This document shows positions 2,048 to 10,397 of a stretch of DNA of 64,000 bases, piece by piece. Under the pieces are notes generated by a model that saw only the letters and a program-made list of their open reading frames with translations, ran no database searches and was not told where the DNA came from. The stretch comes from Stenomitos frigidus ULC18. Its GTDB lineage: Bacteria; Cyanobacteriota; Cyanobacteriia; Leptolyngbyales; Leptolyngbyaceae. Numbering within the stretch: the stretch's first letter is position 1; the number at the start of each line of letters is the position of its first letter. The translations under genes and the position numbers were made by a program. The stretch spans positions 1 through 64,000 of the forward strand of contig NZ_PVWK01000083.1 of assembly GCF_003003795.1 (NCBI RefSeq), in the 5' to 3' direction.

Positions 2048-3013
2048 TTATCCTCCAAGCATGGCTGGCATATTAAGCTCAGAGTCCTGAAAGAGAGGGG
2101 TAGTGAGGTAGCGTTCACCAAAGCTGGGCTGAATCATCACAATGATCTTCCCTTCATAATCGGGGCGGCGACCCACCTGAATCGCTGCATAGAGCGCAGC
2201 ACCACTAGAGATACCAGAGAGTAAGCCTTCTTCGCGAGCCAAACGCCGTCCATAGGCGATCGCATCATCATCTGAGACAGTGATGACTTCGTCGATTAGA
2301 TTGACATTCAGCACAGGAGGCACAAAGCCAGCACCAATTCCCTGAATTTTGTGAGCACCTGGGCGACCACCCGATAGCACAGGACTGTTCGCAGGTTCAA
2401 CCGCGATCGCCTTGAATGTCGGTTTGCGCGACTTGATCACGTCCGCAACACCGGTAATGGTTCCGCCTGTGCCGACCCCAGCAATCACGGCATCAATCTG
2501 ACCATCGGTATCAGCCCAGAGCTCTTCTGCTGTCGTTTGGCGATGGATTTGAGGATTCGCTGGGTTACGAAACTGTTGAAGCATATACGCATTGGGCAAC
2601 GTTTCAACAATTTGCTGTGCCCGCTGAATACAACCGCTCATACCTTCGATGCCTGGCGTCAACTCCAGCTGCGCACCGTAAGCACGTAGCATGGCTCGCC
2701 GTTCAGAACTCATTGTCTCTGGCATCGTCAAAATGAGGCTATAACCCTTTGCGGCTGCGGCCATTGCCAGGGCAATGCCTGTGTTTCCAGAGGTCGGCTC
2801 TACTAGCACCGTTTTACCGGGAGTTATGAGTCCCTCTTTTTCGGCCGCATCAATCATGCTAATGCCAATACGGTCTTTGACTGAAGCAGAAGGATTCATG
2901 CCTTCGAGTTTCACTAAAATTTGCGCGACACACCCATCTGCTTGAGGAATCCGATTTAACTGCACCAGGGGCGTACGTCCAATGAGTTCGGTGATGTTTT
3001 GAGCTACACGCAT
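2048..3013 (-). CDS. cysK: Cysteine synthase A (O-acetylserine sulfhydrylase)
   Basis: A PLP enzyme that makes L-cysteine from O-acetyl-L-serine and sulfide in the cytoplasm. The PLP lysine is K46 in NPSASVKDR. The substrate loop PTSGNTGIA and the phosphate-binding loop [10 protein letters not shown] are intact. The ATG at 3013 gives 321 aa with the standard N-terminus [16 protein letters not shown]; the open frame runs further upstream but that part overlaps the Rrf2 gene. Four nt separate it from the upstream regulator, so they are co-transcribed. The C-terminal block reads [10 protein letters not shown] where many homologues have PDSGERYL, a modest variation. Confidence 0.93.
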
Positions 3014-3762: not shown

Positions 3763-5625
3763 CTAAAACGTAAAGGTTGTCCGTAAAACACCAATGAAAA
3801 CATCGTCATTAGAGTTATTGCCGGGAATGCCTGCATTTTGATTCACACTGGGCAAATAAATCACACCTGGAGTGATGGAAATGTTGTCTGTGAGCTGGTA
3901 CTTGTAGAACACCTCGAAGTGATAAGCAAAATCTTGGCTTCTACTGGCAAAGGCTGGGCTTAAGTTAGCACCCGCAAAATCAGTGCCTCGCAAAGTTGGC
4001 TCTGCACCCGCTACGAGACCCAATAAGTTACCTTTTTTACCCAGATCTGGGAAGCCAACTGCAACCGCAAAATTCCAGATGTCTGCGCTACCCAAACCAA
4101 TGATATTCGCATCACTGTAGCCAACCCAGCCGTTGACGATGAAACCAGGGGTCGGACGCAGCGACGCTTCAACACCGAAGGAATTGCTTTCGACTGGGAA
4201 CGAGCGTCCCCGCAACAGGGAGTTGTTGTTCAAGTTCGCAAACGTTGAACCCGTACCACCCAGGTTGAAGTTGTTGCCAGCCGAGAGCGCAGCATTGTTT
4301 CGTTCGTAGCCACGCACGTAAGTAAAGCCCAGTTTGAAGCCGCCAGAGCTAAAGACTAACTGCGCCAAGGCTGAGTAGTTACCATTAAACACACCACCAT
4401 CTGCTCCAGGGTTACTGGCAGTATTAGAAAGGTAACCAAGGTCAAGCTTAAAGTTGTTGCTGAACTTATAGTTAATGCCAACCCCAGCGCCCAGCGGTCC
4501 AATGCGATAGATTGGGTTGCGTTCGGCAAAGCGAGAGATTGCGTTCTGACCACCACCGTTACCCTCAAAGAGAGGATTAATGGTATCAGCGTAGTAATGA
4601 TGCAGGGCACCATTGGCAAAAATGGTAGCGGTCAAGTTGCTGCCGATGGGAAAGCGGTAATCCAACACGTCTAGAAAGACACTATTACCACCGTTGTTTG
4701 AATCCGTAATTGTGCCGTCAGCCGCAGGGTTGCCACCGTCATAAGGAAGGTTCCCTTCATTGGTGCGCTGGTAGTTATTCTGCGCATTGGGAATGCTGGG
4801 ATTGCTCAGCAGCCGAGTGGCATTACCAGCCTGAAGACGCACTCTCAAACGATCCTTGCCTGTAAAGCTCGTGAGCAAGTTGAGTCGAATGCGATCGTTG
4901 AAAACAGTGTTTGTGCCGCCTTGTCTGGGGTAATCACCAAACGCATCAGCGATCGTGAAAATAACTTCACCGGAGAGCTTAGTGGTCGTGGAGAATTGTT
5001 GTTTCTCCAGGGTTGCCGTGCGTGACTCTAGCGCATCAACTCGTCCGCGCAAGGTTGCCAACTCAGCCGCAAATTCTTCCTGCAGCTTTTGCAGCGCCAC
5101 GAGGTCTTCTTTTTTAACCAAATCAGCAGTGCCTGCGGCAATCAGCTCGTTGATCCGATCCATGCAGGCGTTTAAGCCGGCAGCGAACTCGTACCGAGTA
5201 GTGGCGCGGTTACCGCGGTAGGTTTTATCGGGATAACCCACAATGCAACCGTAGCGTTCAACCAGCGACTGCAAAGCTTGAAACGCCCAATCAGTAGGCT
5301 TTACATCTGACAACTGTGAAACAGACGTCACCTGATTTGCTGCCGTTGCAGGCACTGTCCCTTCCGTGCCGTAAATCAAAACCTGATTTAGAGGAGCGGT
5401 TGGTGAGACGGACGTAGGCGCAGCCTCTGCCAAAAGCACTGGACTGGCGGGAAGCGCTGACAAGCTCTTGTCTGGCTGTCTTTCTATCAGGGGGTGAGCC
5501 ACAGCATCCGTAGCAGTCGTCGCTTTTGCAGTCGAAGCTGTAACCACGATCGCAGACATAGCAACGGTAGCGCCCAGAAGCGCTGGAGCCGCTAATAAAG
5601 ACTTCCAGATTGTTTTTGACATCAT
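3763..5625 (-). CDS. SLH-domain OprB-type outer-membrane porin, copy 1
   Basis: Cyanobacterial Som/iron-uptake-type porin, about 620 aa from the ATG at 5625; a GTG at 5640 is possible but sits too close to AAGG. In order: signal peptide (about 1-35), Pro/Ala-rich linker (36-98), SLH domain (about 100-163) that in this family anchors the barrel to periplasmic pyruvylated cell-wall polymer, coiled coil (about 172-210), and a beta-barrel to the C-terminal Phe in LRTTFTF. The final Phe is the usual BAM-recognition residue. It is the first of three tandem paralogues, all minus strand with wide gaps, so each probably has its own promoter. The substrate (small solutes or iron) cannot be determined from sequence. 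Confidence 0.88.
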   Translation of the reverse strand: MMSKTIWKSLLAAPALLGATVAMSAIVVTASTAKATTATDAVAHPLIERQPDKSLSALPASPVLLAEAAPTSVSPTAPLNQVLIYGTEGTVPATAANQVTSVSQLSDVKPTDWAFQALQSLVERYGCIVGYPDKTYRGNRATTRYEFAAGLNACMDRINELIAAGTADLVKKEDLVALQKLQEEFAAELATLRGRVDALESRTATLEKQQFSTTTKLSGEVIFTIADAFGDYPRQGGTNTVFNDRIRLNLLTSFTGKDRLRVRLQAGNATRLLSNPSIPNAQNNYQRTNEGNLPYDGGNPAADGTITDSNNGGNSVFLDVLDYRFPIGSNLTATIFANGALHHYYADTINPLFEGNGGGQNAISRFAERNPIYRIGPLGAGVGINYKFSNNFKLDLGYLSNTASNPGADGGVFNGNYSALAQLVFSSGGFKLGFTYVRGYERNNAALSAGNNFNLGGTGSTFANLNNNSLLRGRSFPVESNSFGVEASLRPTPGFIVNGWVGYSDANIIGLGSADIWNFAVAVGFPDLGKKGNLLGLVAGAEPTLRGTDFAGANLSPAFASRSQDFAYHFEVFYKYQLTDNISITPGVIYLPSVNQNAGIPGNNSNDDVFIGVLRTTFTF

Positions 5626-5876
5626 TACTTTCACACTCACACCTTAAAGACCCAAAAGCGATATACATACTGTTAAAAGCATTCCCAAAGGAACCTTTAA
5701 CTAAAATAAAATCCTACACTTAATTTGTCGATAACTTTCAAAAACTCATGTGAGGATCATTTCGGCAAGCACAATATGAGCTTTTAACCCATGCTAGAGC
5801 GTAGCTAATCGGCTCTAGAGGGCTATCGCGCAGTGGCTCTAGCAGAAACATAGTTAATTCGTAAACGTTCTTATGT

Positions 5877-5907
5877 AAAAAAAAGCCCCGTGTGAACGGG
5901 GCTTTTT
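5877..5907 (-). terminator. Intrinsic terminator of porin 2
   Basis: A 7-bp GC-rich stem (5885-5891 with 5896-5902) and GTGA/TCAC loop, flanked by A8 and T5, so on the minus strand the stem is followed by a run of eight T. It lies about 30 bp past the stop of the second porin. Confidence 0.88.
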
Positions 5908-5934
5908 AGTTTGTCAGCTTAAGGATTGAGCTAA

Positions 5935-7728
5935 CTAGAAGGTGAAGGTAGTGCGAAGTACGCCAACATATTGCGTTGCGTTGTTGTTGTTTCCTTCTGG
6001 ATTGAAGATCACAATGAGACCTGGTGTAATCGCAATGTTGTTACTAAGTTGATAACGGTACAGGGCTTCCACATGGAACGTCGTGTCATCATCAAAGCGG
6101 CGAACGCCCGCGGTACGGAAATCGTTGCCAGTCACCTTCGCTGGGATACCCACGATAATGCCACCCAAGTTACCTTTCTTACCCAAGTCAGGGAACGCCA
6201 GGTAGACAGAACCGGTGTAGATTTCAGCTTCGTTGCTGCTCCGACCCTGATAGGCTTTGTAGTAGCCAAACCAGCCACCGACAATAAACTGAGGACTCAG
6301 ACGGAAGTTTACTTGAGCACCAAAGGTGTCAACTGAGGTCGGGTTAGCTTGAAACGGAGTTGAAGCATAGGCGCTACCAGTGCTTGCAGTCACGTTAACG
6401 TTGCCGCCGGGGTAGTAAGAGCGGACGTAGGATAACGCAATTTCAAGTGGCTTGGCAGGTCTAAGGACAACTTGCCCAATGGCTGAGTAAGCACCGTTGA
6501 ACAGACCGTTTTTAGGACTTGGGTCGTTGCTATCGGTATCAGTTATAACCCCACCTTGCAGACTTAAGGCAGAACCGAATTTGTAATCAAAGGTTAGACC
6601 AGCACCCGCTGCACCACTCCGAAGTGTCGAGTTGAACCGTCCAAAACGAGAGATCGCACCTGAGCCGCTGCTTGTAAAGGGGCTTAAGCTGCTAACCAGA
6701 CCATCGTAAAACTCGTTCTTGGTTGCATCAATCTGCACGCGTAGATTGTCACCCAGTGGGAAACGGTAGTACAACTCATCGATCGTAAATGCATTACCGC
6801 CGCCATCATCAAAAGCGAGGCGAGTTTCGTTCGTGCCGGTGAATGCACCACTGAAAGAAGTAAAGTTAGCCGCTTGTAGACGCGTGCGCAGTCGATCCTT
6901 ACCAGTAAAGCTCGTATCAAAGTTAAGACGAACACGATTAGCGAAGATGGTCTGGGTTTGATCGTCTCTCAAGCGACCTTCGTTAGCAGCGTTAACGCCT
7001 CCGAGGAAGCGATTATTACCTGTGCGGGTGGCGCGATCGCCAAAGGTATCGGCAACGGCGAAGATTACTTCAGCATTTAGCTTGGTAGTAGTCGAAAACT
7101 GCTGCTTCTCCAGGGTGGCTGTCCGGGCTTCTAGTGCATCCACACGTCCACGCAGAGTAGCCAATTCAGCCGCAAATTCTTCTTGCAACTGTTGCACAGC
7201 CAGCAAGTCTTCTTTCTTCACCAAGTCAGCGGTGCCTGCTGCAATCAACTCGTTGATCCGATCCATGCAGGCGTTCAAACCAGCCGCAAACTCGTAGCGA
7301 GACAGCGCTCGGTTACCGCGGTAGGTCTTGTCGGGATAGCCGACGATACAGCCATAGCGCTCGACCAGCGATTGTAGTGCTTGGAAGGCCCAATCGGTAG
7401 GCTTGACATCCGAAAGCTGCGAAACAGAGGTGACTTGACCGACGATGCCAGTAGAAGGTGTTCCTTCTGTGCTGTAAACAGTCATCTGGCTGAGATTTGA
7501 AGGTGTTGCTTGCGTTGCGGTCGTCGAAGCATCCGCAACAACAACAGGTTTGACTGGCAGAGATGGTGCTGCACTGACTGCACTGTCTACAGTCGGCACT
7601 TTAGCTGCAGCATCAGTCGCCTCAGCCGCATTCACAGCTGCCGTATTCACGATCGCAGACATAGCAACCGTAGCGCCCAGAAGCGCCGGAGCCGCTAATA
7701 AAGACTTCCAGATTGTTTTTGACATCAT
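5935..7728 (-). CDS. SLH-domain OprB-type outer-membrane porin, copy 2
   Basis: Paralogue of the preceding porin, about 597 aa from the ATG at 7728. It has the same architecture: signal peptide beginning MMSKTIWKSLL, linker, SLH domain with VKPTDWAFQALQ and YRGNRALSRYEFAAG, coiled coil LEKQQFSTTTKL, then a beta-barrel ending LRTTFTF. The SLH and coiled-coil parts are nearly identical in protein sequence to copies 1 and 3, while the barrel differs widely, which suggests different pore selectivity. The signal-peptide region and the leader AAGGTGTGAG match copy 1 almost base for base. A strong terminator follows. Confidence 0.88.
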   Translation of the reverse strand: MMSKTIWKSLLAAPALLGATVAMSAIVNTAAVNAAEATDAAAKVPTVDSAVSAAPSLPVKPVVVADASTTATQATPSNLSQMTVYSTEGTPSTGIVGQVTSVSQLSDVKPTDWAFQALQSLVERYGCIVGYPDKTYRGNRALSRYEFAAGLNACMDRINELIAAGTADLVKKEDLLAVQQLQEEFAAELATLRGRVDALEARTATLEKQQFSTTTKLNAEVIFAVADTFGDRATRTGNNRFLGGVNAANEGRLRDDQTQTIFANRVRLNFDTSFTGKDRLRTRLQAANFTSFSGAFTGTNETRLAFDDGGGNAFTIDELYYRFPLGDNLRVQIDATKNEFYDGLVSSLSPFTSSGSGAISRFGRFNSTLRSGAAGAGLTFDYKFGSALSLQGGVITDTDSNDPSPKNGLFNGAYSAIGQVVLRPAKPLEIALSYVRSYYPGGNVNVTASTGSAYASTPFQANPTSVDTFGAQVNFRLSPQFIVGGWFGYYKAYQGRSSNEAEIYTGSVYLAFPDLGKKGNLGGIIVGIPAKVTGNDFRTAGVRRFDDDTTFHVEALYRYQLSNNIAITPGLIVIFNPEGNNNNATQYVGVLRTTFTF

Positions 7729-7743
7729 TGTTTTTACACTCAC

Positions 7744-8180
7744 ACCTTAGTACGAACGGATCGATGTACAGATAGCCCCTAGATTTCCATAGGAAGAGCC
7801 TTATCTGCTAATCCAACACATATACCGGAGACTCTTGAAGTTCGAAAACGTCCAGAATGCTTCCATATAGTACCCCAAAGACTTTCCTTTGAGGTATTAC
7901 ACTGTCCAGTTATCAGAGCTTGGAAACTACCTCCACCTAATTATCAGAGACAATGGTTAACAAGACTTTAAAGGAAGGCGCATTTTCTGGGGCTATTTCT
8001 AGCCTTCGCAGTCTAAAGGCAGCAAAATTTGAGTTCTTTGGCATCAAGAGTAATGTTTTGCATGACGCAACGATCGCAGAATCACTAGTAAAGATCACAA
8101 AAAAGCGCCCTCCGTTTAATGGAGAGCGCTTATGGTATCAAACGTGCTTTTTACACCTCGAAGACATTGTTCACAAATAA
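7744..8180. other. Intergenic region between porins 2 and 3
   Basis: 437 bp. It contains the porin 2 promoter and leader, and the porin 3 terminator near 8099. A + strand frame at 7953-8180 runs through the terminator and lacks a ribosome site, so it is not called. No Fur-box-like sequence was recognised by eye. Confidence 0.5.
8099..8130 (-). terminator. Intrinsic terminator of porin 3
   Basis: A 10-bp stem with one mismatch (8104-8113 with 8121-8130) and a 7-nt loop. The minus strand then runs into T6 (A8099-8104 on plus). It lies 50 bp after the porin 3 stop. Confidence 0.82.
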
Positions 8181-10061
8181 CTAGAACGTGAAGGTCGTTC
8201 TCAGAGTACCGATGAAGATATCCTCAGTGGCGTTAGACTGACCATTGTTAATCACATAAATTACACCAGGTGTAATCGAGATGTTGTCACTCAGTTGATA
8301 GCGGTAAAACGCTTCAAAATGAATTGGTAGACCGTTTGAACCTTGACCAAACTTCTTTGCGTTGCCGAGGTAGGGTTCAACACCAGCGGTCAAACCTAGC
8401 AAGTTGCCTTTCTTGAGGAAGTCAGCAAACGCAACACCAACGCCATAGGTCCAGATTTCGCCTCTACCAACACCGTCGCCTGGTTTGTTCGCTTCGATGT
8501 ACGTACCAAACGCATTAATCGAAATGGTTTTACCCAGATTTAACGAACCCGAAAGACCATAAGCGTTCAGGCTGGTAGACGTAAACTGTCTAGCTTTGCC
8601 GCCTGCTGCGTTGACGAACGCGAAGTTACCCGCAGCCGTACCCACAACTGCACCGCCACTTCCAGTGTCAAAGATGGCACCACGAGCGTAAGCGTTGACG
8701 TAGGTTGCACCAATGGAGAAGAAATCTGTCTTGTAGGCAATCTGGGCAAGCGCAGAATAACTACCGTTAAACAAACCTGCCTTGTCAGCGGGGTTGTTCG
8801 CGCCAAAGAAAGCCTGAGGAGCGTTTAGCTGTCCGCCAGTTGCACTCAAACTAGAGTTGTTCGCCAGGTACCCAAGGCTAAGCTTGAAACTGTTTGTGAC
8901 ATCAAAGTTTAGACCAATACCCGAACCACCACCAATGTTGTAAATGGGGTTACGTTGAGCAAAGATGGTGAGAGGACCATTACCACCATCAAAGCCCTCT
9001 AAAAGACCTGCTTGAGTGGGGGCATAGTCATATTGCAAACCAGCGAAGGCTGGGATGTAAACGCTAATTTTCTCGCCCAGTGGGAAGTAATAAGCAACCC
9101 AGTCAGCAAAGACCGAATTTCCACCAGTGCTTCCAAACTGGAACGATTGAAGACCGATACCACCAACGGAATCTTGGAACCTAAAGGGAACAAAGTTACC
9201 AGCCGCAAGACGAGTAATCAGCAAGTCTTTACCAGTAAAGCTGGTGTTGAACGCTAAACGAACCCGGTCTTGGAAGACGGTTTCATTTCTAAATGGCTGT
9301 CCAAATTCATCAGTAATGGCAAAGATAACTTCACCTGCCAATTTGGTGGTGGTGGAGAATTGCTGCTTCTCTAAAGTCGCAGTGCGAGCTTCCAAGGAAT
9401 CAACACGTCCACGCAAGGTTGCCAGCTCAGCAGCAAACTCTTCTTGCAGCTTTTGCAGCACTGCCAGGTCTTCTTTCTTGACCAAATCAGCAGTACCAGC
9501 AGCGATCAGTTCGTTGACGCGATCAAGGCAAGCATTTAAACCAGCAGCAAATTCGTAGCGAGTGGTAGCGCGATTACCTCTGTAGGTTCTGTCAGGATAG
9601 CCAGCGATACAACCGTAGCGCTCGACCAACGATTGCAAGGCTTGAAACGCCCAGTCAGTTGGCTTAACGTCAGACAGTTGAGAGACAGATGTGACCTGGC
9701 TGGAATTTTGTGAGCGACCTTCACGGGTGTACCGATTGATCTGGCTCAAAGAACTATCGGCTGCTTCAGGTGCAGCTGGGGTTGCTTGCTCCGCTGGTGT
9801 AGAAGCGACTTGTACAGGCAGGCTCTTTTCCAGGCTGGCAGGACGAACGGCTGTCGTCGGTGCATTCGCTAACGCAGAAACTTCAGGAGAAGAAATCTGT
9901 GGAACAGCAGCCAGGGATAGAGGCTGTAAAGCTGATGCTTGAGGCTGAGCAACTTCGTTTGTTGCTTTAGCTTCGGCTGCAATTGCAGAGGCGGAAACCG
10001 TCAAAGCAGCAGCAAGAATTGCAGGGCTGACTAGCAGCGATTTCAAAAAAACGTTGGACAT
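8181..10061 (-). CDS. SLH-domain OprB-type outer-membrane porin, copy 3
   Basis: A 626-aa third paralogue, more diverged. The ATG at 10061 (MSNVFLKSLLVSP) is a clear signal-peptide start. GAGGAG lies about 15 nt upstream, and the GGTGTGAG leader motif shared with the other two porins is present. After a long Ala/Pro linker come the SLH domain (about 125-187), the coiled coil (about 195-235) and a beta-barrel ending LRTTFTF. The barrel contains Gly/Asn-rich loops unlike copies 1 and 2. All three likely serve passive uptake across the outer membrane while tethering it to the wall. Ion or sugar specificity is not visible. Confidence 0.88.
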   Translation of the reverse strand: MSNVFLKSLLVSPAILAAALTVSASAIAAEAKATNEVAQPQASALQPLSLAAVPQISSPEVSALANAPTTAVRPASLEKSLPVQVASTPAEQATPAAPEAADSSLSQINRYTREGRSQNSSQVTSVSQLSDVKPTDWAFQALQSLVERYGCIAGYPDRTYRGNRATTRYEFAAGLNACLDRVNELIAAGTADLVKKEDLAVLQKLQEEFAAELATLRGRVDSLEARTATLEKQQFSTTTKLAGEVIFAITDEFGQPFRNETVFQDRVRLAFNTSFTGKDLLITRLAAGNFVPFRFQDSVGGIGLQSFQFGSTGGNSVFADWVAYYFPLGEKISVYIPAFAGLQYDYAPTQAGLLEGFDGGNGPLTIFAQRNPIYNIGGGSGIGLNFDVTNSFKLSLGYLANNSSLSATGGQLNAPQAFFGANNPADKAGLFNGSYSALAQIAYKTDFFSIGATYVNAYARGAIFDTGSGGAVVGTAAGNFAFVNAAGGKARQFTSTSLNAYGLSGSLNLGKTISINAFGTYIEANKPGDGVGRGEIWTYGVGVAFADFLKKGNLLGLTAGVEPYLGNAKKFGQGSNGLPIHFEAFYRYQLSDNISITPGVIYVINNGQSNATEDIFIGTLRTTFTF

Positions 10062-10397
10062 GGCTTTAATTTATTCTCCTCACACCGATATAGAACGACT
10101 GTTGGGGTCTTCTATCATTACACTCAGATCGTTGACAAGCTGACGCACTCAAGCGTAATCCAGATTAGTTGCTGACGCAAGCGTGTTTTTGTGTTTGTCA
10201 CTACACTTGTAGAACATCATATCGAATCTTGGGTTTCCTGTCTCTAGCTTGCGAATTTTTATGGCTTGAGCATCAAGCGACTCCAGTAAAGCACCTAGAA
10301 GACTGGGAGTAGGTCGTAGGAACTGACAGTGACTGATAACGATTGGATCAGCTAACTGCGTCAATTCTCAAGGTAAACCAGTCTTTGAGTTGCCAGC
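10062..10397. other. Intergenic region upstream of porin 3
   Basis: 336 bp between the amidase 3' end and the porin 3 start, expected to hold the porin 3 promoter. A 71-aa minus frame at 10149-10364 has no ribosome site or recognisable motif and is not called. I see no stable hairpin. Confidence 0.5.

Follow-up and report, generated by a model that had tools for sequence, protein, structure and literature searches.

Gene conversion very probably copied the 5' end of one porin gene, with a predicted Yfr1 target site, into its tandem neighbour in Stenomitos frigidus ULC18

In reporter assays described for Nostoc PCC 7120, the small RNA Yfr1 represses alr4550 (an OprB-like porin), alr0834 (a porin) and murC among other targets, and its target sites lie mostly just upstream of the start codon (PMC6974561). 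Yfr1 control of porin mRNAs also is reported for Prochlorococcus MED4 (PMC6778093), and the Yfr1 undecanucleotide, ACUCCUCACAC, has been termed ultraconserved (PMC2190773). Intragenomic exchange between outer-membrane protein paralogues, which produces chimeric genes, is described for babA/babB and sabA/sabB of Helicobacter (PMC3960876), and long-lasting concerted evolution is reported for the cyanobacterial psbA and psbD genes (PMC6053082). Conversion among outer-membrane paralogues and Yfr1 control of porins are both already known from such reports. The combination of Yfr1 with gene conversion was not found in the literature searched, outside of which most subscription journals lie; judged by title and the start of the abstract, the same literature held nothing relevant on gene conversion together with a small-RNA target site and the outer membrane.

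The window, a stretch of 64,000 nucleotides, comes from the S. frigidus ULC18 genome (G000), which was compared with genomes of the same genus (G001 to G006). It holds three tandem porin genes, p1, p2 and p3, each encoding SLH and OprB parts, and two near-identical 5' patches.

3763 to 5625, minus strand: porin p1, SLH and OprB barrel, putative recipient of the converted leader (Pfam SLH, OprB; from codon 28 onward groups with p1 orthologues, 100/100)
5935 to 7728, minus strand: porin p2, SLH and OprB barrel, putative donor lineage of the leader (Pfam; orthologues in G001, G002, G005 and G006 share the 5' UTR)
8181 to 10061, minus strand: porin p3, SLH and OprB barrel, first of the tandem, with a different leader (Pfam; leader identity to p1 0.50)
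5545 to 5646, minus strand: putative converted tract in p1, comprising 21 nt of 5' UTR, ATG ATG and the signal peptide through codon 27 (97/102 identical to 7648-7749; sibling p1 genes differ)
7648 to 7749, minus strand: matching tract in p2, the putative donor (genome search, segment test, direct comparison)

SLH (PF00395) and OprB (PF04966) scored above cut-off in all three proteins. Translation of p1 and p2 most likely starts at the ATG ATG at 5625 and 7728, respectively, rather than at the upstream GTG listed for the open reading frame. Judged by related sequences, the genome is that of a Leptolyngbyaceae-type cyanobacterium. The closest named records for the p1 protein (80-88% protein identity) were those of Tildeniella nuda, Stenomitos rutilans, Lyngbya sp. 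HA4199-MV5, Leptolyngbya sp. FACHB-321 and ES-bin-22. Three siblings (L050, L052 and L053) have a further gene, p4, placed between p2 and p1; in G000 it is absent there and a p4-like gene is found on another contig, C19 (L036/L155), so the porin cluster has been rearranged.

Compared with what is reported for Yfr1 in Nostoc and Prochlorococcus, this system has the same conserved loop, a site just upstream of the start, predicted porin targets and a Cyano-1 RNA. Unlike the sites in those reports, the sites here were recognised from sequence alone and precede about two-thirds of a large set of porin paralogues, and the p2-type site adds a second pairing block. The proposed exchange resembles that of the Helicobacter genes in making a chimeric gene from outer-membrane paralogues of one genome; it differs in being confined to about 100 bp that hold the translation start and signal peptide, and in belonging to a cyanobacterium. 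As with psbA and psbD, paralogues are homogenised within a genome, but one short tract is affected, with little homogenisation across the family, whereas the psb reports concern whole genes and long times.

The original prediction was that 5545-5646 and 7648-7749 differ at about five of some 100 bases, with many synonymous differences in the SLH part. Direct comparison bore this out: the patches agree at 97 of 102 positions, the mismatches being at -7, -3 and -2 in the UTR and at the synonymous sites +42 and +60, and pS across SLH/coil codons 100-235 is 0.71. Scanned in 27-codon windows, p1-p2 pS rose from 0.10 in the first (codons 1-27) to 0.51-1.05 in the 22 later ones, so that the identity stops before the SLH region. 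The tract ends in a TCTGCGATCG block common to the paralogues. When the genome was searched with the p2 patch, only the two known places were recovered at E ≤ 0.001 (95% over 100 nt), and no third copy was present in the whole G000 genome at that threshold. In the p1-p2 coding alignment, nt 1-81 formed the top-scoring segment (79/81), with a score reached in none of 2000 permutations of codon columns; since the same test also flagged SLH sequence in G005 (0/2000) and G006 (1/2000), it was regarded as uncalibrated for protein-conserved regions, and the sibling comparison was weighted instead.

The 5' UTR pattern was found in six of 42 genomes of the family: twice in G000 and once each in G001, G002, G004, G005 and G006, with the remaining 36 genomes lacking it. 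The gene behind it was p2 in four of these five siblings; in G004, where a leader fragment is all that is visible of p2, the contig ends after about 100 nt. The start of p1 was visible in G001, G002, G005 and G006 (in G004 it lies off the contig, and G003 has no such cluster), and all four orthologues had another UTR and a protein beginning MSKQFWK or MSNQFWKP. The patch is therefore not kept with p1 across species. Similarity of G000 p1 to these orthologues picks up directly after GCGATCGTG, that is, after codon 27. Weak matches to the p2 patch were seen in p1 of G001 and G002 (74%) and in p4 of G004 (77%), and G002 p1 likewise starts ATGATGTC.

Within the tract, the two paralogues of G000 were more alike (pS 0.10, pN 0) than either was to its orthologues, as expected of a bounded gene-conversion tract. 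The p1 leader differed from those of the four siblings with pS 0.27-0.46 and pN 0.18-0.21, and the p2 leader from its four counterparts with pS 0.29-0.71; between p1 and p2 leaders inside the siblings, pS was 0.51-0.69 in all four. Tract and rest-of-gene phylogenies were in conflict. In the leader tree (101 columns) G000 p1 fell among the p2 leaders with support of 96/95, although the node pairing both G000 leaders had support of only 53/81; in the rest-of-gene tree it lay inside the p1 clade (100/100), and its placement with p2 was rejected (p-AU = 3e-37). On the short leader alone, the AU test left a grouping of all p1 genes unrejected (p = 0.107).

Given that the identity stops before the SLH region and that p1 carries another leader in all four siblings where its start is visible, the patch is best read as gene conversion, and the near-identity of the two leaders is no old feature kept in each species. 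We consider it very probable that, in a conversion specific to this lineage, about 100 bp from the 5' end of p2 replaced their counterpart in p1, in a tract that carries a predicted Yfr1 target site. The event looks younger than the split of G000 from G001, since pS is 0.10 in the tract and 0.29 between the p2 leaders of those genomes (0.53-0.69 over the rest of p2). The three UTR differences could be polarised against the p2 UTR of the siblings, which does not vary among the five: two had changed on p2 and one on p1.

The donor and the recipient flanks appear to have been kept, the p2 leader being intact and p1-like sequence resuming past codon 27; the upstream side is weaker and relies mainly on one sibling. 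The identity of p1 and p2 stops 21 nt upstream of the ATG, and the region beyond gave a similarity z of 5.3 to G001 p1, 1.3-2.6 to the other three p1 genes, 3.9 to G000 p4 and 3.0 to G001 p2.

The prediction also had pointed to a conserved leader motif just before the start, and sites of predicted pairing with Yfr1 were located before all three genes.

5636 to 5643, minus strand: GGTGTGAG, predicted Yfr1 target preceding the p1 start; a second pairing block, GTGA, comes after the target (predicted duplex -19.4 kcal/mol; motif enriched before porin starts)
7739 to 7746, minus strand: GGTGTGAG, predicted Yfr1 target before the p2 start, the second block changed to GTAA in G000 (predicted duplex -14.8, compared with -19.3 in five sibling p2 leaders)
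10076 to 10086, minus strand: GGTGTGAGGAG, predicted Yfr1 target before the p3 start, an 11-nt perfect complement (predicted duplex -22.7, z -5.7 against shuffles)

In p1 and p2, GGTGTGAG occupies -18 to -11 relative to the start and is the complement of the conserved Yfr1 loop; AAGGTGTGAG is complementary to the CUCACAC part of the undecanucleotide and the neighbouring C. Selection seems to act on the region before the p2 start, since its 20 nt do not vary among the p2 leaders of five siblings, whereas mean identity is 0.59 immediately upstream and 0.74 in the coding part of the leader. The AAGGTGTGAG motif in the patch is a conserved element, most likely a target site of the Yfr1 small RNA. 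Localised conversion and selection on an RNA or regulatory element had been offered as alternatives; both appear to be present, conversion best explaining the patch and selection the motif.

With porins recognised by an HMM, exact Yfr1-complement 7-mers occurred within 45 nt before the start of 46 of 73 porins of the genus and none of 77 other ORFs. In wider cyanobacterial loci, counted without L087 and L090 (G003, same genus), they preceded 50 of 70 porins and 8 of 502 other ORFs; the control ORFs, of at least 150 aa and taken at the first ATG, came from the compared loci rather than whole genomes. The exact 11-mer site also occurred elsewhere, 11 times in G000. The reversed motif matched 8 of 73 genus porins (GTGTGAGTGTG contains it) and 0 of 70 wider porins. 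Scrambled motifs matched 66 genus porins 3.75 times on average and up to 40 times, the latter because some scrambles nearly rebuild the motif.

It is unlikely that GGTGTGAG is merely an extended Shine-Dalgarno sequence and no small-RNA site. The motif is purine-rich, lies 11-18 nt before the start and has GAGG/AGGA cores that overlap the Yfr1 complement, and such cores were commoner before porins than before controls in the genus (45/66 versus 20/80) and in the wider loci (42/69 versus 185/615), in counts where sorting by a loose text pattern left some porins among the controls. However, 7-mers that lack a Shine-Dalgarno core (GTGTGAG, GGTGTGA, TGGTGTG) preceded 37 of 73 genus porins and 0 of 77 other ORFs, and 29 of 70 porins and 4 of 502 ORFs in the wider loci. 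Furthermore, the exact 11-mer complement stands before MurC-like genes as well, and murC is a validated Yfr1 target in Nostoc according to PMC6974561.

A yfr1 gene is present in G000 (L246), where RF01116 scored 59.7 bits against a gathering score of 38 and the flanking ORFs, recognised by eye, are GuaB-like and TrxA-like, which makes this a guaB-yfr1-trxA locus. A Cyano-1 RNA with GTGTGAGGAGT also is present in that genome; we take this family to correspond to Yfr2. The guaB-yfr1-trxA locus type is among those tabulated in PMC2190773, and Yfr2 is reported to sequester Yfr1 (PMC6974561; PMC6778093). Between positions 3000 and 11000 of the window, no Rfam family scored above its gathering score.

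Predicted duplexes with Yfr1 were scored for 75 of 77 porins (two had no rule-based start, and several of the starts so chosen are doubtful, for example those of p1 in G001 and G006), and the energies shift slightly with the stretch of leader used. The four sibling p1 leaders gave -16.8 to -24.7. Cofolding with the whole of Yfr1 gave -13.6 for p1 and -11.9 for p2 of G000, -15.3 to -18.0 for sibling p2 and -12.2 to -19.7 for sibling p1. Against composition shuffles, the duplex z was -2.3 for both p1 and p2 of G000 and -2.0 to -3.1 for seven p2-type leaders. On the basis of the duplex and cofold energies, predicted pairing of p1 is of about sibling strength and that of p2 is weaker than in its orthologues; the new p1 leader is predicted to bind Yfr1 neither clearly better nor clearly worse than the sibling p1 leaders do.

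We infer Yfr1 control of the G000 porins, in which the RNA would pair in the cell with GGUGUGAG (plus GUGA in a p2-type leader), would cover the start region and most likely would block initiation of translation of the porin mRNAs. Judging from the motif counts, most of the large set of SLH-porin paralogues in these cyanobacteria may be under one small RNA, Yfr1; a porin regulon of this kind, if true, would explain a leader motif that resembles an odd ribosome site.

The patch might alternatively have arisen by unequal crossing-over or a deletion in the tandem, in which p4 was lost and the 5' end of p2 was fused to p1. This reading accounts for the p4 gap between p2 and p1 in G000 and for the p4-like gene on contig C19, yet p2 is intact, and a fusion would have carried p2 upstream sequence beyond the 21 nt at which the identity stops. 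The p1 upstream region is most like that of G001 p1, and a fusion would need a double event. G002 also has no p4 at this place, yet carries the leader pattern only once; crossing-over with p4 loss was rejected on this ground and is considered very improbable. Least credible, by a small step, is purifying selection alone on an RNA, translation-start or signal-peptide element, with no conversion: it would suit the invariant 20 nt before the ATG, but the p2 leader varies among the siblings in its coding part (mean identity 0.74, minimum 0.62), and such selection would be expected to produce the same p1-p2 likeness in the siblings, an expectation contradicted by their four different p1 leaders and by the p1-p2 values given above.

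Under gene conversion, a short non-reciprocal recombination in the G000 lineage would have overwritten the 5' end of p1 from its upstream tandem neighbour, p2; we infer a recombination machinery for this step. The transferred module would consist of the ribosome-binding and small-RNA target region, ATG ATG and the signal peptide. The SLH and barrel parts of p1 would have been kept, most likely along with the upstream region, and the p1 promoter probably was retained. The event would thus have given p1 the start region and signal peptide of p2 and left it its own barrel. With donor, recipient, borders and siblings at hand, this is a clean case in which a short conversion would have exchanged a module of start, small-RNA target and signal peptide and left the pore untouched; taken together, conversion and small-RNA site illustrate how a regulatory handle can pass from one gene to another by copying. 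A fuller regulatory swap is conceivable but rather doubtful: conversion would have moved a strong Yfr1 site and the signal peptide onto p1, after which the p2 site decayed (from -19.3 in the siblings to -14.8), small-RNA control passing between porins with unchanged pores. Any functional importance of the weakened p2 pairing is a guess.

Conversion elsewhere in the porin family was assessed in seven genomes. In a region covering 40 nt upstream of each open frame and the first 290 nt within it, 37 within-genome porin pairs had any BLAST match, and only p1/p2 of G000 exceeded 90% over at least 100 nt. No second tract like that of the G000 leader was found, and there is no special hot spot. Outside the genus, four of seven loci hold at least two complete porins, the best leader match being 72% over 75 nt. 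In a codon scan of 417 within-genome porin pairs, the G000 leader tract was joint 13th by score, and almost all tracts with higher scores fell in the SLH part, led by L173-L176 of G003 (92/102 same-residue codons identical) and p1-p2 of G002 (94/123). Codon identity within versus between genomes was 0.448/0.440 for the SLH part (398 pairs, p = 0.001), 0.398/0.393 for the barrel (p = 0.045) and 0.486/0.488 for the leader (17 pairs, p = 0.96), in a grouping that merges p2 with p4 and so mixes the p2 controls. As these values are nearly equal, concerted evolution across the family is slight or none.

L173 and L176, which share the strongest tract of the scan in their SLH part, are otherwise different porins. 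A separate conversion-like tract of 350/386 nt was seen in the SLH/coil part of G002 p2 and p1 (L051:4601-8610); in the tree of this SLH tract, G002 p1 fell on the p2 side, with support of 100/99 for the pair. The exact 11-mer complement GTGTGAGGAGT adjoins the start of a MurC-like gene, named by eye, in L226, L227, L254 and L257, from four genomes. It also directly precedes a conserved ORF of 174-176 aa, a possible further Yfr1 target, in L232, L240 and L245. In G004 (L056:2969-4925), a transposase-like ORF that by eye looks IS110-like lies directly against the truncated 3' end of a porin beside p4.
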